Shown in pieces: positions 3,551 through 60,720 of a DNA stretch of 64,000 nt. A program made the position numbers and the translations under genes. The notes beneath the pieces are model-generated. The model saw nothing but the letters and a program-made list of their open reading frames with translations, was not told the DNA's origin and searched no databases. Positions within the stretch are counted from its first letter, which is position 1; every line of letters starts with the position of its first letter. Origin of the DNA: Rhodococcus coprophilus NBRC 100603 (GTDB lineage: Bacteria > Actinomycetota > Actinomycetes > Mycobacteriales > Mycobacteriaceae); assembly GCF_001895045.1 (NCBI RefSeq), contig NZ_BDAM01000007.1, forward strand, positions 372,001-436,000, in the 5' to 3' direction.

Positions 3551-5494
3551 GTGAACGACGTCGACGACAACGCGGTGGCCAGGTCGGATGTACACCGGCC
3601 CGGCCTGCCGCGGGGTGTCGCGCGGGGAGTGTTCGCCGGGGGCGTGGCTCTCTCGGCGCTGCTGATGTTCTGGGGTGCGTGGGAGCGCCGGTGGATCGCC
3701 GACGACGGGCTCATCGTCCTGCGCACGGTGCGGAACCTGCTCGCGGGATACGGCCCGGTCTTCAACGCGGGCGAACGCGTCGAGGCCAACACCTCCACGG
3801 CCTGGACCTACATCGTCTACGGCACCGGGTGGCTCACCGGAATCCGGCTCGAATACGTCGTGCTCGGACTCGCGCTGGTGTTGTCGACGACCGCTGTCGT
3901 CCTGGCGATGCTCGGTGCGGCGCGGTTGTACCGGTGGCGTCTGCGCGCAGCGACGGGCACGGTCCTGCTGCTGCCCGCCGGTGCGCTCGTCTACATCGCG
4001 GTGCCCCCGGCCCGGGACTTCGCGACGTCCGGGCTCGAGACGTGCCTGGTGATCTGCTGGCTCGCGTTGGTGTGGCTGCTCATGGTCCGGTGGGCGACGC
4101 CCGACCCGGCCGGTGAGCGCGCCCTGCCCGGCACCGTGGGAATCCTCGGCACTGCTTTCGTCGCCGGACTCGGCCCCCTGGTGCGACCCGAACTGGCGAT
4201 CGTCGCGGGTCTCACCCTCGCTGTGCTGTTCCTCGCGGACGGACTGACGTGGCGTGTGCGCGTCGCGATGGTTGCGGTCGCCGGCGCGGTCCCGGTGGTC
4301 TATCAGATCTGGCGGATGGGCTACTACGGTCTGCCGTACCCGAACACCGCGGTCTCGAAGGACGCGGGCGGTGCGAAGTGGTCGCAGGGCTTCGAATATC
4401 TGGGCAACCTGGCCCTGCCGTACCTGCTCTGGCTCCCGTTGCTCTTCCTTGTCGCGGTTGCCGCGGTGGTGCTGCTGTCTACCGGTAGCGGTCGCGGCGT
4501 GCGCGCGAGGTTCCCGGCACGCGGCACCGACATGCGCACTCTGGTCTCGACGGGCCGGAAGGCCCTGCGCACCCCCACCGCCGTCGTCGTACTGATTCTG
4601 GTGTGCGGCGTCCTGCTCATGCTGTATTCGCTGCGTGTCGGCGGCGACTTCATGCACGGCCGGGTACTGCTCCCGCCCCTGTTCTGCCTGCTGCTGCCGA
4701 TCGCGGTGATACCGCTCCAGGTGCCCGACCGCTCCGGACTCGGAAACAATCGCCCGACCCGCATCGCCGCCGCGGTCGCGGTGCTGTGGGCCGGCACGGT
4801 GCTCTGGGCTTTCTTCGCGTCGAACACGACGGGAATGCCGGAGGGCGCTGTCGTCGGCCGATCGGGCATCGTCGACGAGCGAGCCTTCTATTCGCTCAAC
4901 ACCGGACATCTCCACCCGATCCGGGCCGAGGACTACCTCGACTACCCGCGGATGCGCGCGATGGTCTCGACGATCGCGAACACACCGAACGGGGGCCTCC
5001 TGCTGCCCACACCGGCGTACGACGCGTGGGATGTCGTTCCACCCCCGGAACCGATTCCGCCGGGCGGAGCGGGGCACACGGTCTTTTTTCTGAACCTGGG
5101 CATGACGAGCATGAATGTCGGGCTAGACGTCCGGGTGGTCGACCAGATGGGCCTGGCATATCCGCTCGCCGCGCACACCGAACGCCTCGAGGACGGGCGG
5201 ATCGGGCACGACAAGATCCTGTATCCGGACTGGGTTGTGGCCGAATCGGGGATGGTCGACAGGTATCCGTGGCTGCCTCCGTACCTCGACGAGGAGTGGG
5301 TGGCGAATGCCAAACTCGCGCTCACCTGTCCGGAGACGCGAGAATTGCTGGATTCGTCCGGTGCCGAGCTGACGTGGCCGCTGTTCAAGCGGAACCTGCG
5401 CAACGCCTTCGAGTACGCGGGGTACCGGATCGACCGGGTGCCGGAGTACGAAATCCAGCGGTGCGATCTACCGATCCCGCCCCCGGGTGGATGA
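3551..5494 (+). CDS. aftB: Terminal beta-(1-2) arabinofuranosyltransferase AftB
   Basis: A GT-C membrane glycosyltransferase of about 647 residues (627 in M. tuberculosis Rv3805c). AftB adds the terminal beta-(1-2)-linked arabinofuranose that later carries mycolates, using decaprenyl-phosphoarabinose outside the membrane. The first extracellular loop carries the conserved Asp-Asp pair at D51-D52 in IADDG, followed by RTVRNLLAGYGPVFN. Many hydrophobic helices follow, and the C-terminal 200 residues form a soluble domain. I chose GTG at 3551, 4 bp after the ubiA stop; an in-frame GTG pair near 3524 would overlap ubiA and is less likely. It is the last gene of the glf-aftB operon; a promoter and untranslated leader follow. 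Confidence 0.92.
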   Translation: MNDVDDNAVARSDVHRPGLPRGVARGVFAGGVALSALLMFWGAWERRWIADDGLIVLRTVRNLLAGYGPVFNAGERVEANTSTAWTYIVYGTGWLTGIRLEYVVLGLALVLSTTAVVLAMLGAARLYRWRLRAATGTVLLLPAGALVYIAVPPARDFATSGLETCLVICWLALVWLLMVRWATPDPAGERALPGTVGILGTAFVAGLGPLVRPELAIVAGLTLAVLFLADGLTWRVRVAMVAVAGAVPVVYQIWRMGYYGLPYPNTAVSKDAGGAKWSQGFEYLGNLALPYLLWLPLLFLVAVAAVVLLSTGSGRGVRARFPARGTDMRTLVSTGRKALRTPTAVVVLILVCGVLLMLYSLRVGGDFMHGRVLLPPLFCLLLPIAVIPLQVPDRSGLGNNRPTRIAAAVAVLWAGTVLWAFFASNTTGMPEGAVVGRSGIVDERAFYSLNTGHLHPIRAEDYLDYPRMRAMVSTIANTPNGGLLLPTPAYDAWDVVPPPEPIPPGGAGHTVFFLNLGMTSMNVGLDVRVVDQMGLAYPLAAHTERLEDGRIGHDKILYPDWVVAESGMVDRYPWLPPYLDEEWVANAKLALTCPETRELLDSSGAELTWPLFKRNLRNAFEYAGYRIDRVPEYEIQRCDLPIPPPGG

Positions 5495-5499
5495 CCGAG

Positions 5500-5528
5500 T
5501 TGGCTTGACTCCCTGGTCTCGCTAGTAT
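5500..5528 (+). promoter_or_regulatory. Putative promoter of the first mycolyltransferase gene
   Basis: TTGGCT at 5500-5505 and TAGTAT at 5523-5528 are separated by 17 bp, a good sigma-A spacing. This would give a leader of about 215 nt before the ATG at 5750. The leader contains the hairpin CGGCGG-CAA-CCGCCG at 5552-5566. The promoter call is inference from the hexamers alone. Confidence 0.45.
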
Positions 5529-5749
5529 CACGGCAGATTACGGTCGGATAACGGCGGCAACCGCCGCCGGGGACGGCGGTTCGACGCAAGCCCAGGACCT
5601 CAGAATTCAGGGTTTGTCAGAGATCACGCCGTCCTTTACAGTCTTGACCGCAGTGTGACTTGTGGCGACCGCCCGCGGTCGTCGAACGCCGGGTATTCAC
5701 GGGGGACGCGAAACGCGGACGCCGCTGATCGAGAAAGTGAGCATTGTTC

Positions 5750-6760
5750 ATGCGTTTTGTCCCCAGGTTGTCGCAGGGCCTTCGTAGGCGCCTGCTCGGC
5801 ACCGCCGCCGTGGCGCTGGTATTGCCCGTTGCCGCCGGTGTTGCCGGAACCTCCGCGGCTGTCGCCGCACCGGCCCAGAGCGCCCCGGTCTCGCACCGTG
5901 CGCCGGCCGGAGGATTCGAAGAGGTCTTCGTCGATTCCGACATGGGCCCGATCAAGGTCCAGATCCAGTGGGCCGCCCGTGGCGGTGACGCAGCGCTCTA
6001 CATGCTCGACGGACTGCGCGCCCGCGACGACGCCAACGCGTGGACGTTCGAGACGAATGCTCTCCAGCAGTTCTCCAACGACAACGTCAGCTTGGTCATG
6101 CCGGTCGGCGGCCAGGCGAGCTTCTACACCGACTGGTACTCGCCCAGCAATCTCAACAGCCAGGACATCACCTACAAGTGGGAGACGTTCCTGACCCAGC
6201 AGCTGCCCGACTACCTCGCCACCCGTGGCGTCTCGCGCAGCAACAACGGCATCCTCGGCCTCTCGATGGGTGGCTCCGCCGCTCTGACGCTGGCTGCTTA
6301 CCACCGCGACCAGTTCAAGTTCGCGTCGTCGCTGTCGGGCTACCTGAACCTGTCGGCTCCGGGTATGCGTGAGGCCATCCGCGTCGCGATGCTCGATGCC
6401 GGACGCTTCAACGTCGACGCCATGTGGGGCCCGCCGTGGAGCCCGTCGTGGCTGCGCAACGACCCGTTCGTGTTCGCCCCCAAGCTCGAGGGCCTGTCCC
6501 TCTACATCTCGGCGGCGAGCGGCCTGCCCGGCCAGCACGACAACCCGGAAGGCTTCGCCGGCTTCTACAACACGGCCAACGCCATGGGCCTCGAGGCACT
6601 CTCGCTGGTCCAGACCCGCGCCTTCCAGGTCAAGCTGGCAACCCTCGGTATCCCCGCTACCTTCGAGTTCCCGTCGCGCGGAACCCACGCGTGGAAGTAC
6701 TGGGAAGACGAGCTGTGGAAGGCTCGCCCGCAGATCCTCGAGGCGCTCAACGCCTTCTGA
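5750..6760 (+). CDS. Secreted mycolyltransferase, antigen 85 family
   Basis: A 336-residue alpha/beta hydrolase of the antigen 85/Fbp family. It transfers mycolates from trehalose monomycolate to arabinogalactan or to a second trehalose monomycolate, outside the membrane. An Arg-Arg-containing signal peptide with a long Ala/Val core ends near AAVAAPA (residues 37-45). The conserved LDGLRARDD and MPVGGQ-SFYTDWY segments are present, as are the nucleophile Ser172 in GLSMGG and the catalytic His313 in GTHAWKYW. ATG at 5750 follows GAGAAAGTGAG; a TTG two codons upstream is less likely. Position matches fbpA (Rv3804c) after aftB. A strong terminator follows, so it is probably monocistronic. Confidence 0.93.
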   Translation: MRFVPRLSQGLRRRLLGTAAVALVLPVAAGVAGTSAAVAAPAQSAPVSHRAPAGGFEEVFVDSDMGPIKVQIQWAARGGDAALYMLDGLRARDDANAWTFETNALQQFSNDNVSLVMPVGGQASFYTDWYSPSNLNSQDITYKWETFLTQQLPDYLATRGVSRSNNGILGLSMGGSAALTLAAYHRDQFKFASSLSGYLNLSAPGMREAIRVAMLDAGRFNVDAMWGPPWSPSWLRNDPFVFAPKLEGLSLYISAASGLPGQHDNPEGFAGFYNTANAMGLEALSLVQTRAFQVKLATLGIPATFEFPSRGTHAWKYWEDELWKARPQILEALNAF

Positions 6761-6798
6761 TCTCCCGGTAGCTATCCGGTAGCACTGCTTCGCACAAC

Positions 6799-6828
6799 GC
6801 CGCCCATCACCGAAAGGTGATGGGCGGC
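6799..6828 (+). terminator. Perfect 13-bp hairpin terminator
   Basis: GCCGCCCATCACC, then a GAAA tetraloop, then GGTGATGGGCGGC, with no mismatch. It lies 38 bp after the first mycolyltransferase stop and is followed by a pyrimidine-rich stretch (ctttct). Confidence 0.85.
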
Positions 6829-6976
6829 GCTGCGCTTTCTGCCACAATCTTCTCATCAGTCACAGCGCGGCACCCCCGCGATCAACTCGTTTACGTGTAC
6901 AAACAAGATTCGGGACGGGGGTCATCCGGCACAGCGAGCGCCCGCGCGGGCGCCCCGGCAACGCAGGAAGCGAGCG

Positions 6977-8905
6977 ATGCAGATGCGAACCGAGCTTGGC
7001 GGTCACCGGAGAAGATCGGGCGGCAGCGCGCGTCCCGAAAGTGGCGGAAGACGATCCGTGGGATTCGCGAAGCGGCGCGCACTCGGTTTGCTCGCCGCCG
7101 CGCTCGTGGCACCGCTGGCCGCCGGGGCCACCACCGTCTCGGTCGCATCCGCGGAACCGCTCGCGGCACAAGCCGACCCCGTCGGCCAGAACGCATCCGG
7201 TGCGACGGTGCGCGCGGTGGACTGGCTCACGGATCGCCGTGTCGCGCTCTGGATCGACTCCCCGTCGATGGGTACGCCCATCCAGGTGCAGATGCTCCTC
7301 GCCCGCGACTGGAACATCGCGCCCGAGAAGCGATTCCCCTCGGTCTTCATGCTCGACGGCATGCGCGCCCGCGACGATCAGAGCGGCTGGACCCTCGAGA
7401 CCGATGCCGAGGCTTTCTTCGCCGACAAGAACGTCAACGTCGTCCTTCCGGTCGGTGGGCAGTCCAGTTTCTACTCCGACTGGGTGGACCAGAACAACGG
7501 CCAGAACTACAAGTGGGAGACGTTCCTGACCAAGGAACTCCCGCCGATTCTCGAGAAGGACTGGCGTAGCACCGACAAGCGCGGTGTCGTGGGCCTGTCC
7601 ATGGGTGGAACGGCGGCGATGTTCCTGCCGGCGCGCAATCCCGGATTCGCGCAGTTCGCGGCGTCGCTCTCGGGCATTCTCACCACCACGACGCTCGGCA
7701 TGCCCGAGGCGATCCACTATGCGATGCAGGACGCGGGCGGATTCGACTCCGAGGCGATGTGGGGTGAGCCCGGCGGCGAGGGCTGGAAAGCCCACGATCC
7801 GTATCTTCTCGCCGACAAACTGCGAGGCGTGAGCCTGTACGTGTCGAGCGGAAGCGGTAGTGCCGGTCCGTACGACGACCCGTCGAGCGTTCCCGGCGTC
7901 AGCACCAATTACGCAGGCATGGGCCTCGAGATCTTGTCGCGCCTGACGTCCCAGTCGTTCGCGACCAAGCTGAAGAAGATCGGCATCCCGGCGCAGATCG
8001 TGTACCGGCCGTCGGGCACTCATACGTGGAAGTACTGGGAGTTCGAGCTGCACCAGTTGTGGCCGCAGCTTGCGAACACACTCGGTGTCGAGGTGGAGAA
8101 GCCGGCATGTGCGCCCGCCGGAGCCATCGCAGACGTTGCCGGTGCCGGCCCGTGGCTGGGCGACTGCCTCACCGCGGAATACCCGGTCGCCGGTGGCACC
8201 GTGCAGGACTTCAGGTTCGGGCGCGTCTTCTCGTCCGACGGAGTGACCGTCCCGGTCGCGGGCGCGATCGGCGGCGTCTACCAGGGCAACGGCGGACCGG
8301 CGGGGGTGCTCGGTTACCCGACCACCGAGGAACGCGGCACCGCGGACGGCCGCAGCCGGTTCAACCACTTCCGCAACGGTGCGATCTACTGGACCCCCGA
8401 ACACGGTGCGCACCCGGTGCGCGGCGCCATTTTCGAGGAGTGGAAGCGGCAGGGCTGGGAGAGCGGTCCCCTCGGGTACCCCGTGCTCGACGAGGCGAGA
8501 ACCCCCGACGGCCGAGGTGTCGTGCAGGGCTTCGAGATCGGTGCGATGTACTGGTCGGAGCAGACCGGCGCACACGCGGTGCTGGGCATGATCATGGACC
8601 GGTACAGCCGCCTCGGTTACGAGGGTGGAGTGCTCGGTTACCCGACCTCGAGCGAACAGGTCGCCAAGGACAACGGCCGTGTCGGCAACTTCCAGAACGG
8701 GCGCATCTACTGGAGCGAGCCCACCGGCGCCTGGCCGGTGCGAGGCAAGGTGCTCGAGGCGTGGGACGCGGAGGGCGCCGAGAACGGCCGGTTCGGGTAC
8801 CCGGTCGGCGAGGAGTTCCCGGCCGAGAGCGGACGTGGCATCCAGCAGAATTTCCAGAACGGTTTCGTCACCGTCGACGGCGGCGAGGTCACGCTGACCC
8901 CGTAG
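6977..8905 (+). CDS. Mycolyltransferase with C-terminal LGFP repeats
   Basis: A 642-residue two-part protein. Residues about 1-60 form a signal peptide with a basic start. Residues 70-370 are an antigen 85-type mycolyltransferase with LDGMRARDD, PVGGQSSFYSDW, nucleophile Ser208 in GLSMGG and His349 in GTHTWKYW. Residues about 430-640 contain four LGFP-type repeats, marked by LGYP/FGYP at residues 445, 499, 553 and 606, a period of 53-54. LGFP repeats occur in corynebacterial PS1-type mycolyltransferases and are thought to bind the cell wall. A GGAAG ribosome site precedes ATG 6977. M. tuberculosis has the truncated, inactive MPT51 (FbpD) here instead, so this is an active, wall-anchored version. 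Confidence 0.93.
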   Translation: MQMRTELGGHRRRSGGSARPESGGRRSVGFAKRRALGLLAAALVAPLAAGATTVSVASAEPLAAQADPVGQNASGATVRAVDWLTDRRVALWIDSPSMGTPIQVQMLLARDWNIAPEKRFPSVFMLDGMRARDDQSGWTLETDAEAFFADKNVNVVLPVGGQSSFYSDWVDQNNGQNYKWETFLTKELPPILEKDWRSTDKRGVVGLSMGGTAAMFLPARNPGFAQFAASLSGILTTTTLGMPEAIHYAMQDAGGFDSEAMWGEPGGEGWKAHDPYLLADKLRGVSLYVSSGSGSAGPYDDPSSVPGVSTNYAGMGLEILSRLTSQSFATKLKKIGIPAQIVYRPSGTHTWKYWEFELHQLWPQLANTLGVEVEKPACAPAGAIADVAGAGPWLGDCLTAEYPVAGGTVQDFRFGRVFSSDGVTVPVAGAIGGVYQGNGGPAGVLGYPTTEERGTADGRSRFNHFRNGAIYWTPEHGAHPVRGAIFEEWKRQGWESGPLGYPVLDEARTPDGRGVVQGFEIGAMYWSEQTGAHAVLGMIMDRYSRLGYEGGVLGYPTSSEQVAKDNGRVGNFQNGRIYWSEPTGAWPVRGKVLEAWDAEGAENGRFGYPVGEEFPAESGRGIQQNFQNGFVTVDGGEVTLTP

Positions 8906-8924
8906 CGAATCGCAGACTGCTGCC

Positions 8925-8970
8925 GCACGCGCGGCCGGCGGGGCCAGGCGCTCCGTACGGCCGCGCGTGC
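8925..8970 (+). terminator. 13-bp inverted repeat, probable terminator
   Basis: GCACGCGCGGCCG at 8925-8937 and its exact reverse complement at 8958-8970, with a 20-nt loop, 20 bp after the LGFP mycolyltransferase stop. There is no T tract, so termination is inferred from position and stem strength. Confidence 0.55.
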
Positions 8971-9035
8971 GCTATGTAGCCTGGGTCGCACCCTGTTCCA
9001 GTTCTGCTCGATACCGGATGTGAGGACACCACCCC

Positions 9036-9581
9036 ATGCCTGCACGGACCCGCTCGCGCTCCACCCGCGTCTTCGGCGCACTCGCCGCGGCAATGGCCGC
9101 CACCGCAGTTCTGTCCGCCTGCGGAAGCGACGACTCCACCGCAACGAGCACACCGGCCACGACGACGAGCGTGACGACGTCCACCAGCACGACGTCCGCG
9201 GCCGACGACACGGATGCGACCACCTCGGACGAGACCACGGCAAGCTCCAGCGCAGCCGACGGTGAGCAGTCCGCGCCTCCGGCCGCCGCAGAACCTGCCC
9301 CCGGTGGCGGAGCGGCCGCTCCGAACGCGAAGGGCGAGGAATTCCTCGCCGCGCTGCGCGCCGAGGGCGTCGAGCCCTCCGACGATGCCGGGGCGATCAG
9401 CATCGCCGACTACATCTGCAGCGCCCAGACGCAGGGCGGATCCCCGTCCGAGGTCAAGACCTTCGTCACTGCGCTGGTCGGCAGCGAGTCGGTAACCTCC
9501 GGCGGGGACATCACCGAGGAGCAGGCCGCGGCAACGGCGGACACCTACATCGCCGTCGCGGGCGACACGTACTGCAGCTAG
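9036..9581 (+). CDS. DUF732-type lipoprotein
   Basis: A 181-residue protein starting with a lipoprotein signal: a basic N-terminus, an Ala-rich core and the lipobox LSAC, with lipidation expected at that Cys. A Thr/Ser/Ala-rich linker of about 60 residues follows. The C-terminal domain contains FLAALRAEGV, a Cys in DYICSAQ and a final Cys in DTYCS, matching the two-cysteine pattern of DUF732, a small secreted domain common in mycobacteria and rhodococci. Its function is unknown. It sits 14 bp upstream of the cutinase-like gene and is probably cotranscribed with it, so a role near the mycolate layer is a guess from context only. Confidence 0.8.
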   Translation: MPARTRSRSTRVFGALAAAMAATAVLSACGSDDSTATSTPATTTSVTTSTSTTSAADDTDATTSDETTASSSAADGEQSAPPAAAEPAPGGGAAAPNAKGEEFLAALRAEGVEPSDDAGAISIADYICSAQTQGGSPSEVKTFVTALVGSESVTSGGDITEEQAAATADTYIAVAGDTYCS

Positions 9582-9595
9582 GAAGGGTCGGCACG

Positions 9596-10558
9596 ATGGT
9601 CAGGACGAAGCAGCGTCGTAGTGGACGCAGAATCGTGGTCCTGGGGGCACTGCTCCTCCTGGCCGTCGTGCTGGTGCTCTGGTACCTGCTTGCCGGGCGC
9701 CTGGACCTGCCCGGTCCGACTCCCACGCCTCCGGGTACCGACGAGACGCAGTCGCAACCGGCCTCGTGCCCGGATGTGCAGGTCGTGGCTGTGCCGGGAA
9801 CGTGGGAATCCGCCATCGGCGACGATCCCTACAATCCGGCCGCCAATCCGATGTCGCTGATGCTGAACGTGACGCGTCCGCTCCAGGAACAGTTCGATCC
9901 CCAGCGCGCGGACGTCTACACCGTCCCGTACGTCGCCCAGTTCTCGAACCCGATCGCCATCCCGCCGGACGGTCAGCAGTCCTACAACAACAGTCGCGGT
10001 GCCGGCACGGCTGCGACCACGGAGATCCTGGCGCAGCGCTTCGCCGAATGCCCGCTGACGAACTATGTGCTCACAGGCTTTTCGCAGGGCGCGGTCATCG
10101 TGGGTGATATCGCTTCGCAGATCGGTGCAGGCAACGGCCCAGTTCCCGCCGATCGCGTTCTGGGGGTCGCGTTGATCGCTGACGGCCGTCGCGACGGTGC
10201 GTCGGGAACGGACATCGGACAGCCCGTCGCAGGAGTGGGCGCGGAATTGTCGCTCGACGGACTGCGGCTGCCGGGCATCACGATGACGGGCGCACGAGCA
10301 GGCGGGTTCGGTTCGCTCGACGACCGCACGATCCAGATCTGCGCGCCGACAGACAGCATCTGCGATGCTCCGCCGAATGCGTTCAATCCGTCCAACTGGG
10401 CGACTGCCGCTCCCCGGATTCTCGAGTACGTCAACAATCCGATCCACGCGCAGTACAACACGTATGTGGTCGACGAGAACGGCACCACCGCGACGCAGTG
10501 GATCACGTCGTGGGCGACCGAGTTGATCGAGGAAGCACCCCACCCCGCCGAGGAGTAA
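9596..10558 (+). CDS. Cutinase-family lipase/thioesterase, Rv3802c-like
   Basis: A 320-residue membrane-anchored or secreted protein: basic N-terminus, one hydrophobic segment at about residues 14-33, a Pro/Thr linker, then a cutinase-like alpha/beta hydrolase. The nucleophile is Ser163 in GFSQG; Asp and His are expected in the ICAPTD-CD and IHAQY segments, and cysteines that would pair are visible. The M. tuberculosis homologue Rv3802c is essential, has phospholipase A/thioesterase activity, and its loss stimulates mycolate changes. A GGAAGG site lies 9 bp before ATG. The gene sits between the mycolyltransferases and fadD32, as in mycobacteria. Confidence 0.88.
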   Translation: MVRTKQRRSGRRIVVLGALLLLAVVLVLWYLLAGRLDLPGPTPTPPGTDETQSQPASCPDVQVVAVPGTWESAIGDDPYNPAANPMSLMLNVTRPLQEQFDPQRADVYTVPYVAQFSNPIAIPPDGQQSYNNSRGAGTAATTEILAQRFAECPLTNYVLTGFSQGAVIVGDIASQIGAGNGPVPADRVLGVALIADGRRDGASGTDIGQPVAGVGAELSLDGLRLPGITMTGARAGGFGSLDDRTIQICAPTDSICDAPPNAFNPSNWATAAPRILEYVNNPIHAQYNTYVVDENGTTATQWITSWATELIEEAPHPAEE

Positions 10559-11118
10559 GACGACTCGAGAGTTACTCACCGGTAGTGTCGGTCGTCACCA
10601 CCGGGTTCGGTCGCCCGCCCATCGGCCTCTAGACTCATCCCGCCCGGCACGCCCGGCCGGCCCGAGTTCGCGGTGATCGACGACCGCCACATGAGAAGAG
10701 GTTCGATGGGAGCCAGCGACGGAGCGGCAGCAGCCCGCCCCGCGACGGGTCGTTCCCGCACCGGCAACCTCGGCTCAGCGGGCAGGCCGCGTGTGTGCGA
10801 ATCGCACCGGCGCCCGAACGCGACATGGGAACATGGCGTCCACCGACCGCCGAATGTGCGCGGTGGGCCGACGATGTCGTATGTTGGTGACTTCCCCGAC
10901 AAGGCGGAAGCACTGGTCGCGTCGATTTCGGTATTCGCGGGGTGGGCGAGCGATGCCGATCTGTAACATATCCGTGATCTCGGACCGATGAACACGTTCG
11001 GTGGGTCGCACGCAGACGCTGTTGTCGATGTTCGGTTCGATGATCTGGCAGCGCAAGGACGAGTTAGGGGCGCAACCATGTCGAGTGGTTGTGGGATCGC
11101 TTCGACAGGGAGAAGGAA
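10559..11118. other. Long intergenic region upstream of fadD32
   Basis: About 560 bp between the cutinase-like gene and fadD32. Short open frames exist on both strands but show no recognisable protein and poor ribosome sites. I see no rRNA or tRNA. The part at 10961-10980 (TGTAACATATCC) is the most AT-rich and could hold a -10 element for the fadD32-pks13-accD4 operon, but I find no matching -35. The length suggests a regulated promoter or leader. Confidence 0.5.
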
Positions 11119-13008
11119 TTGAGCGTCGGGTTCGAAGAGTTCATCGATGAAAACGGCCGCATCACGTTGCCGGAGGGGAACACGCTGCTCGATCACCTCG
11201 AGCAGCACGTGGCCTCCAACGGTGACGAGACGGCATACCGCTACATCGACTACTCACGGGAACGGGACGGCGAGGTCCACGAACTGACGTGGAACCAGTT
11301 CGGCGTCCGACTCAAGGCCATCGCCGCACGGTTGCAGCAGGTCACCGATCCGGGTGACCGCGTTGCGATCCTCGCACCGCAGGGTCTCGACTACGTGGTG
11401 TCCTTCTTCGCTGCGATCTACGCCGGCGTCATCGCCGTACCGCTGTTCGACCCGGACGAGCCCGGCCACACCGACCGCCTGCACGCCGTTCTCGGCGACT
11501 GCACCCCGAGCGCCATCCTCACCGCCACCTCGTCGGCCGCAGGTGTCCGGCAGTTCTTCCGCCCGCTTCCGGCCGCGCAGCGCCCCCGCGTGATCGCCGT
11601 CGACGCCATCCCGGACACGCTGGCCGACTCGTGGACCCGCCCCGACGTCTCCACCGACGACATCGCCTACCTGCAGTACACGTCCGGTTCGACCCGTGTT
11701 CCCGCCGGTGTCGAGATCACCCACCGTTCGGTGCTGACCAACGTCATCCAGATGGCCGACTCGATCGAGCTCAACGAGACCTCCCGAGGCGTGACCTGGC
11801 TGCCGCTGTTCCACGACATGGGACTGCTCACGGTGATCCTGCCCGCGATCGGCGGCAAATACATCACGATCATGAGCCCGCGGGCGTTCGTCGCGCGGCC
11901 CGGCCGCTGGATCCGTGAACTCGCAGCGGTCTCCGACGGTGCCGGCACGTTCGCCGCCGCGCCCAACTTCGCCTTCGAACACGCCGCCGCCCGCGGCCTG
12001 CCGAAGGACGGCGAGACCCTCGATCTGAGCAACGTGATCGGTCTGATCAACGGCAGCGAGCCGGTGACCACGTCGTCGATGCGCAAGTTCAACGAGGCGT
12101 TCGCGCCCTACGGCCTGCCCAAGACGGCGATCAAGCCGTCCTACGGGATGGCCGAGGCCACCCTGTTCGTCTCGTCCACCAAGCACAGTGACGAAGCGAA
12201 GGTCATCTACGTCGACCGCGACGAACTCAACGCCGGACGCATCGTGCGCGTCGACCGGGACACCGCGAATGCGATCCCCCAGGTCTCGTGCGGGTTCGTG
12301 TCGATCAGCCAGTGGGCTGCGATCGTCGACGCCGAAACCGGCGCAGAGGTGCCCGACGAGCACGTCGGCGAGATCTGGCTGCGCGGCGACAACATCGGCA
12401 TCGGTTACTGGGGTCGCAAGACCGAAACCGACGAGACCTTCCACAACAAGATCACACAGCGGCTTCCCGAGGGCAGCCACGCCGACGGCACACCCGACGA
12501 CGCGATGTGGCTCCGCACAGGCGACTACGGCGTGTACGTCGACGGTGAGCTCTACATCACCGGTCGCGTCAAGGACCTCGTCATCGTCGACGGCCGCAAC
12601 CATTATCCTCAGGATCTCGAATACTCGGCCCAGGAGGCCAGCCCCGCGCTGCGCCCCGGATTCGTGGCAGCGTTCGCAGTTCCGGCCAACCAGCTCCCGC
12701 AGGTCGTGTTCGAGAACTCGGCGTCGGGTCTGGAGTTCGATGCCGACGATTCGTCCGAACAGCTCGTCGTGGTCGCCGAGCGCGCACCCGGTGCGGGCAA
12801 GGTGGATCCGCAGCCGGTCGCCGATGCGGTGCGCGCCGCCATCTCGGCCCGCCACGGCGTGACCGCCCGCGACGTACTGCTCGTTCCCGCGGGGTCGATT
12901 CCCCGTACGTCCAGCGGAAAGATCGCACGGCGTGCCTGCAAGGCCGCCTACATCGAGGGAACGCTGCGTGGGGGACACCAGCAGCAGGCGTTCCCCGACA
13001 GCGTGTGA
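11119..13008 (+). CDS. fadD32: Long-chain fatty acyl-AMP ligase FadD32
   Basis: About 629 residues, an ANL-superfamily adenylating enzyme that activates the meromycolic acid as acyl-AMP and loads it onto the N-terminal ACP of Pks13. Visible motifs in order: the ATP-binding [42 protein letters not shown] and [18 protein letters not shown]. The last motifs are typical of the FAAL branch, which lacks CoA transfer. The start is uncertain: TTG at 11119 has AGGGAG six bases upstream and matches the M. tuberculosis N-terminus, while the frame also opens at TTG 11089. The gene is 36 bp upstream of pks13. Confidence 0.95.
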
Positions 13009-13029
13009 AGTGATGTTCTCGTTCCCGGG

Positions 13030-13035
13030 TAGCGT
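13030..13035 (+). promoter_or_regulatory. Possible internal -10 element before pks13
   Basis: TAGCGT (TANNNT) ends 9 nt before the pks13 ATG at 13045, where no Shine-Dalgarno sequence is visible. This is the arrangement expected of a leaderless transcript. Inference only. Confidence 0.35.
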
Positions 13036-13044
13036 GGTGGGTTG

Positions 13045-16000
13045 ATGGCTGACATGGAAATGACCGTTGCGGAACTGCGCGACTGGCTGCGGAACTGGAT
13101 CGCGGACACGACCGGCCAGCCGGTCTCGCAGATCACGGACGACCGTCCGCTCGAAGAGTTCGGGCTGTCGTCCCGCGACGCCGTGGCCCTGAGCGGTGAG
13201 ATCGAGGAACTCCTCGACGTCACCCTGAACGCGACGATCGCGTACCAGCATCCGACCATCGCGTCGCTGGCCACCCGCATCATCGAGGGGGAGCCGGAAC
13301 GACCGGAGGACGTGGACGACGCCGCGAGCTATGCGGTGCGGCCCACCGGGATGTCCAAGGACATCGCGATCGTGGGTCTGTCGACGCGTTTCCCGGGCAA
13401 CATCCGGACCCCCGACGAAATGTGGGACCTGCTCTCTTCCGGCCGCGACGCCATCTGCGATCTGCCCGAGGGCCGCTGGTCGGAGTTCGAGGGCGATCCG
13501 GCCGTGCGTGACTCGATCCGCAAGGCCAACACCCGCGGTGGTTACCTCGACGACGTCAAGGGTTTCGACGCCGAGTTCTTCGCGATGTCGCCGCGCGAGG
13601 TCGAGATGGTCGACCCGCAGCAGCGTCTCGCGCTCGAACTGACGTGGGAGGCGCTCGAGCACGCGCACATTCCGCCGAGTGACCTCAAGGGTGGTTCGGT
13701 CGGAGTCTTCATCGGCAGTTCCGCGAGCGACTACATGCTGCTCGCGTCCGTCGACCCCTCCGTTGCGCACCCGTACGCGCTGACGGGCACGTCGACTGCG
13801 GTCATCGCCAACCGCGTCTCCTACTTCTACGATTTCCACGGCCCCTCGGTCACCCTCGACACTGCGTGCTCGTCGTCGCTGGTCGCGGTGCATCAGGCGG
13901 TCCGTGCCCTGCGCGGCGGTGAGGCCGACGTCGCACTTGCCGGTGGCGTCAACATGCTCCTCGCACCGGCCGGAACTCTCGGCTTCGACGAACTCGGCGT
14001 GATGGCACCCGACGGTCGCATCAAGGCTTTCTCGGCCGACGCCGACGGCATGATCCGTGCCGAGGGCGGCGGTCTCGTCGTGCTCAAGCGCCTCGAGGAC
14101 GCCGAGCGCGACGGTGACGACATCCTCGCCGTCATCGCCGGTACCGCCGTCAACCAGGACGGCCGTTCCAACGGTCTTGCCGCCCCGAACCCCGAGGCGC
14201 AGGTCGACGTGCTGCGCCGGGCGTACCGGGATGCACAGATCCTGCCGTCGGGTGTCGACTACATCGAGGCACACGGCACCGGCACGGTGCTCGGTGATCC
14301 GATCGAAGCCGACGCGCTCGGACGGGTCGTCGGCCGCGGCCGCGACGCCGACAAGCCGGTGCTGCTCGGTTCGGCGAAGACCAACTTCGGTCACCTCGAG
14401 TCGGCCGCCGGTGCTGCGGGACTGATCAAGGTCGTTCTCGCGATGCAGGAGAACGAGCTTCCTCCCACGCTCAACTACACCGCGCCCAACCCGTACATCC
14501 CGTTCGACAAGGCACATCTTCAGGTCATCCCCGAGGGTGCGAAGTGGCCCCGCTACTCGGGCCGGGCCGTCGCCGGTATCTCCGGTTTCGGATTCGGTGG
14601 CACCAACGCGCATGTCGTCGTGCGCGAATACACCGGTCCCCAGGGGCAGGAAGCAGCCGAGGCCGAGGTCGAGATCGTTCCCGACGCCGTCCCCGAGGCA
14701 GCGGAGGTCCCCTCCGAACCGGCTCGTGAACTGCCGGTCGTGCTCGCGGTGTCCGCTCCGATGCCGTCGCGTCGCCGCCGCGCCGCAGCCGACCTCGCGG
14801 ACTGGCTCGAGACCGAGAAGGGCAGCACGACGCCGCTCGCCGACGTGGCGCGCACGCTCGCGCGTCGCAACCATGGTCGCTCCCGCGCAGTGGTGGTCGC
14901 CGCCGACCGCGCCGAAGCCATCGCCGGTCTTCGCGCCGTCGCTGCGGGCAAGCCGGCTCAGGGAGTGTTCACCGCCGACGCGCCGGCCTCTGCCGGGCCC
15001 GTGTGGGTGCTGTCCGGGTTCGGTGCCCAGCACCGGAAGATGGCCAAGCAGCTCTACCTCGAAAACCCGGTCTTCGCCCGCGCCGTCGACGAGGTCGACG
15101 AACTGATCGTCGACGAGTCGGGTTACTCCATGACGGAGAAGTTCCTCGACGACAGCCAGGACTACGACGTCGAGACCGCCCAGGTCGGCATCTTCACCAT
15201 CCAGATCGGCCTCGCTGCGGTCCTGCGCCACCACGGCGCCGAGCCCGCCGCGATCGTCGGGCACTCGATGGGCGAGGCCGCCGGCGCCTACATCTCGGGT
15301 GGCCTTTCGCTCGAAGACGCGGTCCGCGTCATCTGCGCCCGCTCGCGCCTAATGGGCGAAGCGGAAGGCCAGCTCGAGGGCGACGACATCCGGCTGATGG
15401 CGCTGGTCGAATACAGCGCCGACGAGATCACCGCGGTGCTCTCGGACTTCCCGCACCTCGAGGTGTGCGTGTACGCCGCGCCGACGCACACGGTCATCGG
15501 TGGCCCGCAGGACGAGGTCAACACGATCGTCGCCCGGGCCGAGGCCGAAGAGAAGTTCGCCCGGGTCCTCCAGACCAAGGGTGCGAGCCACACCTCGCAG
15601 GTCGACCCCATCCTCGGGGAGCTCGCCGCCGAGCTCGCCGGCATCGAGCCGCACAAGCTGAAGGTCGCCGTGTACTCCTCGGTCGACCAGGAGACGCTGT
15701 ACCGGCCCGGGCACGAGGGCATCCACGGCGTCGACTACTGGACCAAGGGGATGCGCCACAGCGTGTACTTCACGCAGGCGGTGCGCCAGGCACTGTCCGA
15801 CGGGCACACCACCTTCGTCGAGCTGAACGCGAACCCCGCGACGCTCATGTCCGTCGCGTCCACCGCGTTCGATGCGGGTGTGCAGGACGGCCAGTTCATC
15901 CAGACGCTCAAGCGCAAGGAAGACGAGTCGCTCGGCGTACTCCTCGCACTCGCGCAGCTGTACGTGCACGGGCACTCCGTGGACCTCGGGAGCCTGCTCC

Positions 16001-57175: not shown

Positions 57176-57248
57176 GCGCCCGTAGCTCAACGGATAGAGC
57201 ATCTGACTACGGATCAGAAGGTTAGGGGTTCGAATCCCTTCGGGCGCA
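57176..57248 (+). tRNA. tRNA-Arg (ACG anticodon)
   Basis: Acceptor GCGCCCG pairs with CGGGCGC at 57241-57247, discriminator A. Anticodon ACG at 57209-57211 in loop CTACGGA between TCTGA and TCAGA. T arm AGGGGTTCGAATCCC. The last 35 bp of this region recur at 60620-60654, which marks it as the likely attachment site of the following island. Confidence 0.96.
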
Positions 57249-57251
57249 CTC
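57217..57251 (+). repeat. Left attachment-type repeat (3' end of tRNA-Arg)
   Basis: 35 bp starting GAAGGTTAGGGG at the tRNA 3' end. It matches 60620-60654 with one mismatch; the last 28 bp (from AGGGGTTCGAATCCC) are identical. Duplication of a tRNA 3' end at both borders is the classic trace of site-specific integration. Confidence 0.75.
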
Positions 57252-57254
57252 TGA

Positions 57255-57292
57255 AAAGCCCCTCATCAGCAGCAATGCTGACGAGGGGCTTT
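57255..57292 (+). terminator. Terminator after tRNA-Arg
   Basis: AAAGCCCCTC-ATCAGCA-gcaa-TGCTGA-c-GAGGGGCTTT, a stem of 16 bp with one bulged base, starting 7 bp after the tRNA and ending in T residues. Confidence 0.8.
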
Positions 57293-57549
57293 CTCGTGTC
57301 GTGATAAGGAGTGCCGACGACACGGCTGTCGCGGCAGCCCGCCGCCGTCGGAATTTTTGCCTGGCAACTGCGTTCCGGAGATCGTGACTGTTGCGGACGG
57401 TGACGCGCCGGTGCATCTGCTCGTTCCCGACCTTCGGGCCGGCCGCCGGGTCGCGGGTCTGCCGCTCAGCTGACCGGCAGATCGAACCGATCCGGTCACC
57501 GGGAACGGGACCCGGCCCGATCGACTACCGGGCGCACCGCCCGTTCAGG

Positions 57550-57723
57550 TCAGAGCTCCCGGGGGTCGAGCAAGCCCGCGTGCACCGCCTTCACCAGGCG
57601 CCGTGGGACCCGGTGGACGGCGCCGTCGACGGTTACCGGGACGAGGGCGGGGACGGCCGCGGTCCACTGGGAGCGCCGGGAGCGGGTGTTGGCGCGGGAG
57701 GTGCGGCGTTTGGGTACAGCCAT
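57550..57723 (-). CDS. rpmF: Cysteine-free ribosomal protein L32 paralogue
   Basis: A 57-residue protein starting [20 protein letters not shown], the L32 hallmark. The C-x-x-C pairs that bind zinc in standard L32 are absent; the protein has no Cys at all, so it is the zinc-independent (C-) form used under zinc starvation. AAAGGAAC precedes the ATG at 57723. It is the last gene of the CobW-L31-L32 transcript on the minus strand, 26 bp after L31. Confidence 0.9.
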
Positions 57724-57749
57724 GACAAGTTCCTTTCGAAGAGACGGAA

Positions 57750-58001
57750 TCAGGGACGGCGGCGGCCGTACTTGCGTTCGAATTTTTCGACGCGGCCGGC
57801 GGTGTCGAGTGTCCGGGCCGTTCCGGTCCAGAACGGGTGCGAGGCGCTGGTGACGTCCGCGATGATCAGCGGGTAGGTATTCCCGTCGGACCATTCGATC
57901 GTCCGATCGGATCGGGCGGTGGAGCGGGTGAGAAATGCGGTTCCGGTGTTGGCGTCCTGAAACACGACAGGGTGGTACTCGGGGTGGATTCCGGGTTTCA
58001 T
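57750..58001 (-). CDS. rpmE2: Zinc-independent ribosomal protein L31 type B
   Basis: An 83-residue L31 of the B type: [20 protein letters not shown], then SDGNTYPLI and SASHPFWTG, ending FERKYGRR. There are no cysteines, whereas zinc-binding L31 has a CxxC pair. The start overlaps the stop of the upstream CobW-family gene (ATGA), so translation is coupled. It replaces the zinc form on the ribosome when zinc is scarce, freeing zinc. Confidence 0.94.
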
Positions 58002-59212
58002 CGGCGTTGCTCTCCTTCGGTCAGTGACGTTTCCGGTTCGGTGTGAGTCGTTGGTTCACAAGGGTCTTCGTGATATTCGCCGAATGGGTCGGGCCAGCTC
58101 GCCCACAGGTGGGGCTGGGAGAATTCGGTGTCGGTGAGCAATGCCCACTGCAGCGCGGTGCGGATCGCGTCGGGATCGGCGTCGTGGGTGAGGATCGCCA
58201 GTGAGGTGTCGCGGTCGCCGTAGTTCTCGTCCCAGCGCAGTGCCGCCAGGACTTGCCGTTCGGGACTTGTCTTGTCGAGTTGTTCCGGTGTCATGGCGGC
58301 GAGCCACGGCCCGGCGTGCGCCGCGCGAAGTCCGCTCCCGGCGGACTCGAGGAGCAGGGCGTTGTCGGGTTGCGTGGCGACCCAGGCCCGGCCGCGGACG
58401 CGGACCACGCCGTCGAGCAGGACGTCGATTGCCTCGTGGAGTCGTCCGGGATGGAAGGGACGACGGGCGGAGAATTCGAACAGCTCGATCCCGCAGTCCT
58501 CCCCGAGCGGTGGCTGGCCGCGCAGCAGGGGGGAGTGCGCGTCGGAGACCGCTCCACGCCGTGCGGTCGGCGGGATGCGCCGGAGCAGGTTCTCCACATC
58601 GCCGTGCTCGCCCCAGATCACGGGCGCATCGGGGGCGAGCCGCGACAGGACCGCGTGCAGCCGTGCCTGGTGCCATCCGTCGGCTCCCGGCCGGACGACG
58701 AGGGCGTCGGCGAACTCGACCTGACCGACGACGACCTGCGCGGTGGTGCGGTCGTCGTCGAGTTCGTCGTCTCCGGTGGCGTCGGCGAGCCAGGTGTCGG
58801 CGTCGACGCAGGTCACCGTGGCATCGATGCGCACATCGTGGGCGGCCGGCGCGTCGACTCGGCCGACGATGTCTGCGACCACGAGGTGTTCGATCGCCCA
58901 GCACAGTGCTTCGGGTTCGATCAGGGGATCGAGCAGCAGCACGATGCGGTCGACGTTGCTGCGGTCGTGCAGGCGACGCAGCAGCGGCAGCAGGTCTTCG
59001 CGCAGCGTGCAGGAGACGCAGCCGTGCGTGAGTTCGAGGATTTCTTCGCGTTCGTCGTCGGCCGTGGTCAGGGTGCGGCGCACGATGCCTTCGTGGAGGT
59101 CGGCCAGGTTGTGTCGTACGACGATCGTGCCGGGTCGCAACAGGGAGTGTGCGGTCTGCTCGGTCGGTCCGCGCCACCCGGCGACGAGGATCAGCGGTGT
59201 CCGGCTCGTCAC
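57998..59212 (-). CDS. mrf: CobW-family protein, Rv0106/Mrf-like
   Basis: A 404-residue member of the CobW/COG0523 family. The CxxC-type motif [14 protein letters not shown] (residues about 65-78) and the C-terminal domain with [16 protein letters not shown] are conserved. At the P-loop position the sequence is [12 protein letters not shown], without the Lys of GxxGxGKT, so GTP binding is doubtful. This same feature, and the rest of the sequence, resemble M. tuberculosis Rv0106. The mycobacterial relative is Mrf, which recruits the hibernation factor MPY to zinc-starved ribosomes; the name is by analogy. GTG 59212 follows AAAGGA. It reads with L31 and L32. Confidence 0.8.
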
Positions 59213-59227
59213 GGGAATCCTTTCGAT

Positions 59228-59240
59228 AATGATTGTCATT
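59228..59240. promoter_or_regulatory. Zur-like operator upstream of the CobW-family gene
   Basis: AATGA-TTG-TCATT, a perfect 5-bp inverted repeat with a 3-nt centre, 16 bp upstream of GTG 59212. It fits the AATGAtnnTCATT core of Zur boxes and the gene content is that of a Zur regulon. Confidence 0.75.
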
Positions 59241-59281
59241 TGCTTTTGGTGAGCGTACAGTCCCGGTCGACGCTTGTCGAA

Positions 59282-59294
59282 AACGATTGTCGCT
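59282..59294. promoter_or_regulatory. Second Zur-like operator upstream of rpmB
   Basis: AACGA-TTG-TCGCT, the same centre as the first box with one arm mismatch, 27 bp upstream of the rpmB GTG. It probably gives separate control of the + strand operon. Confidence 0.6.
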
Positions 59295-59321
59295 AACGCT
59301 GATGGCGACGGAGAGGACACC

Positions 59322-59558
59322 GTGTCGGCGCACTGCCAAGTCACCGGGCGTATACCCGCATTCGGAAAAACCGTGTCTCATTCCCACGTCCGCACCACCC
59401 GGCGCTGGAACCCCAACATCCAGCGCAAGACATACTTCGTGCCCTCCGAGAGGCGACGGGTCACCCTGACCGTCTCGGCGAAGGGCATCAAGACCATCGA
59501 CCGGGACGGCATCGATGCCGTCGTCGCCCGACTGCGCGCCCGAGGGGAGAAGATCTGA
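59322..59558 (+). CDS. rpmB: Zinc-independent ribosomal protein L28 paralogue
   Basis: A 78-residue L28: [22 protein letters not shown], then [10 protein letters not shown] and [14 protein letters not shown]. It keeps a single Cys near the start but lacks the remaining zinc ligands of the C+ form. GGAGAGG lies 5 nt before GTG 59322. First gene of the L28-L33-S14 operon, with the Zur-like box upstream. The L33 ATG overlaps its stop by one base. Confidence 0.9.
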
Positions 59559-59722
59559 TGGCCCGCAACGAGATCCGTCCGATCGCGAAATTGCGCTCGA
59601 CCGCCGGAACCGGCACCACGTACGTCACCCGCAAGAACCGCCGCAACGATCCCGACCGCCTCGTGCTGCGCAAGTACGACCCCGTGCTGCGCCGGCACGT
59701 CGAGTTCCGCGAGGAGAAATAG
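59558..59722 (+). CDS. rpmG: Cysteine-free ribosomal protein L33 paralogue
   Basis: A 54-residue L33: [39 protein letters not shown]. The zinc-binding cysteines of the C+ form (CxxC...CxxC) are absent. Its ATG shares one base with the rpmB stop (TGATG) and its own stop is 2 bp before the rpsN start, so the three are tightly coupled. Confidence 0.92.
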
Positions 59723-59724
59723 CC

Positions 59725-60030
59725 GTGGCGAAAAAATCGAAGATCGCCCGCAACGAGCAGCGCCGGCTGGTCGTGGCCCGCTACGCTGACCGGCGCGCCG
59801 AGCTCAAAGAGATCGTGCGACGGCCGGCGAGCACCCCCGAGGAACGAGCTGCCGCCCAGGCCTCCTTGCAGCGCCTGCCCCGCGACGCCAGCCCGGTGCG
59901 AGTGCGCAACCGCGACGCCGCGGACGGGCGCCCCCGCGGCCACCTCCGCAAGTTCGGCCTTTCGCGGGTGCGGGTGCGTGAACTGGCGCACCGGGGCGAT
60001 CTGCCCGGCGTGCGCAAGTCGAGCTGGTAA
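59725..60030 (+). CDS. rpsN: Zinc-independent ribosomal protein S14 paralogue
   Basis: A 101-residue long-type S14: [59 protein letters not shown] and LPGVRKSSW. The long form lacks the two CxxC pairs of short zinc-binding S14. GTG start with short spacing after rpmG. It ends the + strand operon; rpmJ follows after 148 bp. Confidence 0.94.
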
Positions 60031-60178
60031 CCCGCTCGACGATGGCACCCGAACGAGGACCTGAAAGGAAGACGCAGGCGACCGTACACCGGCACCCACC
60101 GCTGAGTACCTCGAAGACACCACGCCGACGAGGGCACACCTGCCCCGTAGGCAGTATTCCCCGGCCAGGAGGCACGAC

Positions 60179-60301
60179 ATGAAAGTCCGCGCATCACTGA
60201 AGTCCCTGAAGAACCAACCCGGTTCCCAGGTCGTCCGCCGCCGCGGGCGGGTGTATGTGATCAACAAGCACAATCCGCGGTTCAAAGCCCGCCAGCGCTG
60301 A
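60179..60301 (+). CDS. rpmJ: Cysteine-free ribosomal protein L36 paralogue
   Basis: A 40-residue L36 with [20 protein letters not shown] and [16 protein letters not shown]. The usual CxxC...C...H zinc site is missing, with Gly/Val in place of cysteines, as in other zinc-starvation L36 forms. AGGAGG lies 7 nt before ATG. A separate promoter in the 148-bp gap is likely but no obvious Zur box is seen there. Confidence 0.92.
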
Positions 60302-60619
60302 CGGCCTATCCCACGCACGTCGGCCCGGTCGACAGTGCGATGTCCCGAATGCCCCTGTGAGGTACCCGGTGACCGGGACCGGCGCCGGCGCCGTGGACAA
60401 AGTGACGTCGGACCGCCGCGGTACATACGTCAGCGCGCTACGGATCCGCCGGGCACAGCGCCCACACCGGTGCACGGTGGTCTCGACGAAGACGATCAAC
60501 GCCGTGACCCCGACCAGGGCCACGGCGTGAGCAGCGAGCATCACGGGCTGGTAGGCGCTATCGATTGCTACTACTCGGCGTCCATCGGAATCGATCGGAA
60601 AATGACGTGACTCATAACG
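60302..60619. other. Intergenic segment at the right border of the island
   Basis: 318 bp with no convincing gene. A minus-strand frame encodes one hydrophobic stretch, but it runs antisense into rpmJ and has no ribosome site. Just before the border repeat the sequence reads GACTCATAACGG, resembling a tRNA anticodon loop with CAT, but it is not part of a foldable tRNA. Confidence 0.5.
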
Positions 60620-60654
60620 GAAGGTCAGGGGTTCGAATCCCTTCGGGCGCACTC
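60620..60654 (+). repeat. Right attachment-type repeat (partial tRNA-Arg 3' end)
   Basis: 35 bp matching 57217-57251 with one mismatch (T to C) and a 28-bp identical core at 60627-60654. No acceptor 5' half or D arm lies upstream, so it is a tRNA fragment rather than a gene. Confidence 0.75.
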
Positions 60655-60655
60655 A

Positions 60656-60693
60656 CGAAACGACCTCGCCGGAAGCTCGGCGAGGTCGTTTCG
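60656..60693. terminator. Perfect 16-bp hairpin terminator
   Basis: CGAAACGACCTCGCCG, 6-nt loop, and its exact complement. It starts 2 bp after the tRNA fragment and 28 bp from the stop of the oxidoreductase gene on the minus strand. It may be the original terminator of tRNA-Arg before the island inserted. Confidence 0.8.
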
Positions 60694-60720
60694 CATAGAG
60701 GCGCTGTCACACCGGCTTCG

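Follow-up and report, generated by a model that had tools for sequence, protein, structure and literature searches.

A compact island at tRNA-Arg(ACG) of Rhodococcus coprophilus carrying a plasmid-type zinc-starvation ribosomal protein cassette and a scrap of an integrase

The DNA examined here, hereafter the window, is a stretch of 64,000 nucleotides of Rhodococcus coprophilus NBRC 100603 (contig NZ_BDAM01000007.1, positions 372,001 to 436,000), in which a tRNA-Arg(ACG) gene is followed by a 3.4-kb segment composed largely of zinc-starvation ribosomal protein paralogues. The cassette (Table 1) encodes L32, L31 type B, L28, L33, S14 and L36 type B, together with Mrf, and each of these products passes the curated cut-off of its family. 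Cysteines are absent from five of the six ribosomal proteins (L32, L31, L33, S14 and L36), and L28 has one. An earlier inspection of this DNA from its letters, the sequence-only reading, had named these paralogues without zinc cysteines (C−), an Rv0106/Mrf-like gene, two Zur-type boxes, an intact tRNA-Arg (ACG) upstream, and, at the far end, a 35-bp repeat of the tRNA 3′ end that differs at a single base; all of these stand, as judged by the family assignments and cysteine counts, the box scores, the ARAGORN call, the conservation of the tRNA in congeners and realignment of the two repeat copies.

Table 1. Features of the tRNA-Arg(ACG) locus, in window coordinates. G017 is a congener whose integrase element is described in the text; BX2 refers to plasmid NZ_CP027558.1 of R. 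rhodochrous BX2.
Feature	Coordinates	Strand	Evidence or remark
tRNA-Arg(ACG), intact, integration site	57176..57249	+	ARAGORN
Left attachment repeat (35 bp), equal to the tRNA 3′ end	57217..57251	+	
Element left end, terminator-like hairpin	57255..57325		71 bp 82% identical to left end of G017 integrase element
Tyrosine-integrase scrap, 23 residues	57326..57394	-	Orientation as G017 integrase
rpmF2, zinc-free L32	57550..57723	-	PF01783, TIGR01031; 0 Cys
rpmE2, L31 type B	57750..58001	-	NF002462; 0 Cys
Mrf, ribosome hibernation factor-recruiting family, Rv0106/MSMEG_6069-like	57998..59212	-	NF047431, 595.1 bits against a cut-off of 375
Zur box 1 (predicted)	59218..59241		3/24 mismatches to published mycobacterial consensus
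Zur box 2 (predicted)	59272..59295		1/24 mismatch to published mycobacterial consensus
rpmB2, L28 without paired zinc cysteines, one Cys	59322..59558	+	PF00830, TIGR00009
rpmG2, zinc-free L33	59558..59722	+	PF00471, NF001860; 0 Cys
rpsN2, zinc-free S14	59725..60030	+	NF006477, PF00253; 0 Cys; 84% identity to BX2-plasmid rpsN
rpmJ2 (ykgO), L36 type B	60179..60301	+	NF002021; 0 Cys
Right attachment repeat (35 bp), residual attB	60620..60654	+	One mismatch
Hairpin of the right flank, where empty sites have the tRNA terminator	60656..60697		

Both predicted Zur boxes lie between the divergent Mrf and L28 genes, as expected of an alternative ribosomal protein (AltRP) cassette, and five 64-kb shuffles yielded a single site with three mismatches and none better. 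The two boxes can be picked out by eye in each of the 15 cassettes compared, a comparison that left out one copy without L28 (that of Rhodococcus sp. HM1). Zinc-type counterparts, also expected of such a cassette, are present elsewhere in the genome, where a search covering L28 and L36 found a CxxC L28 and a second L36. The genome also has three Fur-family genes, one of which (L128) directly follows an ArsR/SmtB-family gene, as in smtB-zur.

The tRNA gene is kept intact and a direct repeat of its 3′ end marks the far boundary of the segment, as is typical of tRNA-integrated genomic islands. We surveyed this site in 18 genomes of the genus (labelled G below), comprising the R. coprophilus genome itself (G000) and 17 congeners. 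All 74 tRNA bases are identical at 16 of the 17 congener sites, the sole exception being G009, a 75%-complete draft in which one T-stem base is missing. All 17 have a T at the position where the two repeat copies disagree, and the drift is therefore in the right copy; a search of the R. coprophilus genome with the tRNA region recovered no further full copy.

In four of the 17 congeners (G012, G013, G014 and G015) the site is empty, with the tRNA leading directly into a terminator hairpin and then into the LLM oxidoreductase gene that in the window comes after 60654. The flanks of the segment align well with those of the sister genome G012, at 595 of 673 positions (88%) for the left 600 bp plus tRNA, and at 1,013 of 1,168 aligned positions (87%) for the right 1,200 bp. 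Because the tRNA-to-right-flank junction is uninterrupted in four congeners, sister included, the 3.4-kb region is an insertion, in agreement with the proposal of the sequence-only reading that a tRNA continuous with the hairpin at 60656 in other Rhodococcus genomes would support one. It could be argued instead that the 35-bp copy is the trace of an old duplicated tRNA and that no insertion ever took place, since one repeat copy is exactly the 3′ half of a tRNA; however, ARAGORN calls no tRNA at 60600 and the four empty sites run straight into the right flank, and we reject this explanation as having next to no credibility.

The tRNA-Arg(ACG) gene is an integration hotspot in this genus (L034–L051). 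The contents of the other 14 of the 18 sites, window included, were sorted by hand. Tyrosine integrases abut the tRNA in at least two congeners (G016 and G017). Downstream of the tRNA, G003, G005 and G008 have a gene with a RelA/SpoT domain together with a small partner, whereas G001 and G002 have a C-5 DNA methylase, accompanied in G002 by Vsr; G006 was assigned a C-5 DNA methylase through its 91% DNA similarity to G001. The inserts of G010 and G011 measure about 10 kb and that of G009 about 1 kb. G004 and G007 gave no match to the LLM gene, and the right flank is not reached on the same contig in G001, G002, G006 and G016.

A pointer to how the segment was inserted is found at its left end. 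The first 71 bp of the element resemble the left end of the G017 integrase element and were not seen in the four empty sites, and directly after them lies a peptide of 23 residues that aligns with residues 260–284 of the G017 integrase. Its BLOSUM score is 78, where the maximum among 10,656 window peptides is 57, and its tblastn score is 34.7 bits, where the controls (200 shuffles and 300 window pieces) reach at most 27.3. The statement that no integrase is visible in the 3.4 kb thus holds in that there is no intact gene, and fails in that this scrap remains. G003 retains a longer stretch (residues 182–405, 66% identical, one stop). The empty sites, together with the similarity of this scrap to an integrase that a congener has at this tRNA, support the suggestion that the island is what remains of a larger element whose integrase has been lost.

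The G017 integrase element (L050, about 5307–14600) spans 9.3 kb. The tRNA 3′ end recurs 9.3 kb away, identical over 35 bp, and since the genes in between include those for HTH proteins, an AAA_25 protein and a Phage_capsid protein, the element looks like a phage or phage satellite. A comparison of its integrase with IMG/VR returned three distant relatives, at 25–37% identity.

A cassette of the same type and gene order, L36 included, is present on the 423-kb plasmid NZ_CP027558.1 of R. rhodochrous BX2 (G008), a strain that carries a native chromosomal copy as well. The island and the plasmid are 82% identical over 2.5 kb of DNA; the homology covers 57542–60032 plus L36, with outer ends at 57542 and 60302. 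No copy of the tRNA 3′ end, at up to six mismatches, was found in a 26.9-kb stretch of the plasmid. Further copies of the window type are in G009, where the contig ends within the cassette, and in Rhodococcus sp. HM1 (G014), where the copy is incomplete. In a phylogenetic tree of Mrf (25 rows, from which HM1 was dropped by the length filter) the window, BX2-plasmid and G009 proteins form a clade at 100/100, which the native proteins of G001 and G006 join at 88/92. In all, 20 plasmid records have any match; among them, an L31-L32 piece lies on the conjugative plasmid NZ_CP120358.1 of R. rhodochrous LH-B3 (L078:9878-10433), near two recombinase genes. The presence of the same cassette on a plasmid, together with the empty sites in congeners, agrees with the earlier proposal of a mobilised Zur regulon.

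Several searches for other vehicles yielded little. Mrf had nine pattern matches and no relatives in IMG/VR, and among phage records it matched three, each below 60% identity; a scan of genome contigs for the cassette gave six loci, the nearest being the G014 cassette, and the flank of the G009 cassette had three short Streptomyces plasmid matches covering 1% of it. We note that the second, window-type copy in HM1 (L062:2227-3875) lacks L28, L33 and S14 and has an Mrf that aligns in three pieces, and that IS110 and other plasmid-type matches lie near it. Ribosomal paralogue sets are also annotated on one Tsukamurella and two Streptomyces plasmids (L079, L080 and L081) from among the 20 matching plasmid records.

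Most of the genomes surveyed have a set of their own. A native, Mrf-centred set occupies one syntenic chromosomal locus in 12 of the 18 genomes, with L31-Mrf//L28-L33-S14 in all 12 and L32 in 11 (not G010), and it ends in a cysteine-free S18; the genus thus conserves L32-L31-Mrf//L28-L33-S14-S18 as a module of its chromosome. The sequence-only reading had taken L31, L32 and L36 to be additions to the usual operon, and because the first two are native members of the set, L36 is the sole addition: it was not found with native cassettes, and is common to the island and the BX2-plasmid cassette. A lone type B L36 lies in G010 (L069:9359-9475, G010:C27) beside a COG0523-like fragment, away from any cassette.

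In the other six genomes (G000, G005, G007, G009, G012 and G015) the native cassette is deleted. S18 nonetheless survives in all six as an intact, cysteine-free frame of 85 amino acids (in the other 12 genomes it is 85–86 amino acids long and likewise cysteine-free), and an S14 scrap is detectable in four of the six, G000 included (not in G005 and G007). S18, which had been reported as absent, is therefore missing from the island and not from the organism, the intact copy being at the native locus of R. coprophilus (L052:8372-8626, G000:C4); true absence from the genome was rejected on this ground. Across the 18 kb of that locus no Zur box with three or fewer mismatches was found, the best being one four-mismatch site about 2 kb from S18. 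Since S18 is kept in every one of the six deletions and there is no good Zur box near the R. coprophilus copy, the gene layout suggests that native S18 may have its own promoter and role.

The history of the native locus bears on how the island arose. R. coprophilus and G012 are sisters in a two-gene tree (100/100; G001, G002 and G006 were less than half filled) and share details of the native deletion scar, but in G012 the tRNA site is empty and a search at E 1e-60 found no Mrf. Because G012 shares the scar and yet its tRNA site is empty, the simplest order is native loss followed by import. A hand count on the same tree gives five native losses if the locus was never regained, and four changes otherwise. 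We consider it very probable that the segment is a 3.4-kb island with a plasmid-type zinc-starvation cassette, its integrase reduced to a scrap, that restores a set lost from the chromosome. The order of events and the exact vehicle we infer as follows. The common ancestor of R. coprophilus and its sister species would already have lacked the native chromosomal cassette, S18 excepted; most likely a plasmid-type cassette then entered by integration at the 3′ end of tRNA-Arg(ACG), presumably by way of a tyrosine integrase, restoring the lost set and adding L36, and the integrase gene would then have decayed.

The retention of S18 and of an S14 scrap in a genome without its native cassette is also what one would see if that cassette had simply moved within the lineage to tRNA-Arg, with no horizontal transfer and S18 left behind. 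This is very unlikely, and we reject it: G012 has the same native scar although its tRNA site is empty and no Mrf was found in it at the above cut-off; in the Mrf tree the island falls with the copies of the plasmid and G009 (100/100) and not with the natives; and L36 is common to island and plasmid. Stepwise accretion, in which a G017-type element came to the tRNA before the cassette and the cassette was added later from a plasmid by homologous or insertion sequence (IS)-mediated recombination, deserves more weight, although we favor it less than direct entry. The plasmid DNA homology stops at both ends inside the attachment repeats, and the resemblance to the integrase element is confined to the outer left end, both of which point toward two steps; against it, no IS remnant or target duplication was noticed at the cassette borders, although no systematic search was made. 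This course is compatible with a restoring island as described above and differs in the order of events.

A number of observations weigh against restoration by an integrase-borne cassette. The integrase scrap is short, and at the DNA level its alignment to the G017 integrase is not significant (81 of 500 shuffles are as good). When 11 other related loci were compared, using the longest frame per locus, which may not always be the integrase, three (L114, L117 and L118) scored 53–62 and eight 18–29. An intact integrase element carrying the cassette was not found. The BX2 plasmid is typed as non-mobilizable, and its L32 (L054:7480-7649), missing from the plasmid's gene table, can be aligned only as two segments that lie in different frames. 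As to regulation, all three Fur-family genes fall short of the NCBIfam cut-offs, and NCBIfam thus singles out no Zur. Each species is represented by one genome, and it is possible that the island was gained before G000 and G012 split and was then precisely excised in G012. Nor are mobile-type cassettes clearly tied to native loss, being present by hand count in two of the six deletion genomes (G000 and G009) and in two of the 12 native-bearing ones (G008 and G014).

Ribosomal proteins are usually regarded as vertically inherited, and horizontal transfer of ribosomal proteins in their C+ and C− forms was reportedly described by Makarova in 2001. According to a study of S4, C− ribosomal genes pass from one lineage to another and disappear from particular lineages, with transfer inferred from trees and gene neighbourhood (PMC3087516); by contrast, the island displays the ends of its vehicle, its site and an integrase scar. 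A close counterpart is the Zur-regulated AltRP/Mrf cluster MSMEG_6065-6070 of Mycobacterium smegmatis, which similarly has S14, L33, L28, L31 and Mrf, a Zur box being predicted upstream of rpmB and of Mrf, and which holds S18, with L36 and L32 not among the rows listed (PMC7174638); the island differs in having S18 at another locus, L32 and L36 in the set, and a tRNA location. The zinc-responsive genomic island (ZnGI) of M. avium ssp. paratuberculosis is likewise lineage-specific and has ribosomal paralogues, a Mrf homologue and Zur boxes, but it is about 90 kb long and includes transporters and many other genes, and the words tRNA, integrase and horizontal do not occur in the text of the report (PMC4298942). 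The R. coprophilus island, unlike ZnGI, is 3.4 kb, almost only ribosomal genes, and has attachment repeats and empty sites. No report of a tRNA-integrated or plasmid-borne AltRP cassette is among the literature matches listed, which is no proof of absence; what looks new is that an island so compact and so nearly all ribosomal can be seen together with its integration site, the empty site, a scrap of integrase, a related plasmid cassette and a native S18 that complements it.

That the site, the empty site, a decayed integrase, a plasmid relative and native loss are all visible within one genus indicates that ribosome components can be carried as cargo by mobile elements. We tentatively speculate that zinc-free ribosomal proteins and Mrf might constitute a self-contained, mobile ribosome-remodelling kit, spread among actinobacteria by plasmids and integrative elements and replacing native sets that are repeatedly lost, with S18 outside the kit owing to its own Zur-independent promoter and role. 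It becomes testable whether acquired ribosomal proteins are built into the host's ribosomes when zinc is scarce, and whether a kit of this sort can rescue a lineage whose own set is gone.

The likely function of the cassette can be proposed by homology. In M. smegmatis, zinc starvation strongly induces the homologous genes, which are assigned to the Zur regulon and have boxes like those seen here (PMC7174638). In R. coprophilus, by analogy, zinc-loaded Zur would repress the divergently transcribed cassette through the two-box region; under zinc starvation the zinc-free proteins would replace their zinc-binding paralogues and so spare zinc, and Mrf would recruit the hibernation factor. Rv0106, of the same family as Mrf, is reported to lack GTPase motifs and to have CXSC in place of CXCC (PMC2770081). 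The window Mrf also has the CXSC form, reading CVSC, and the term GTPase in the family name may therefore not denote an activity.

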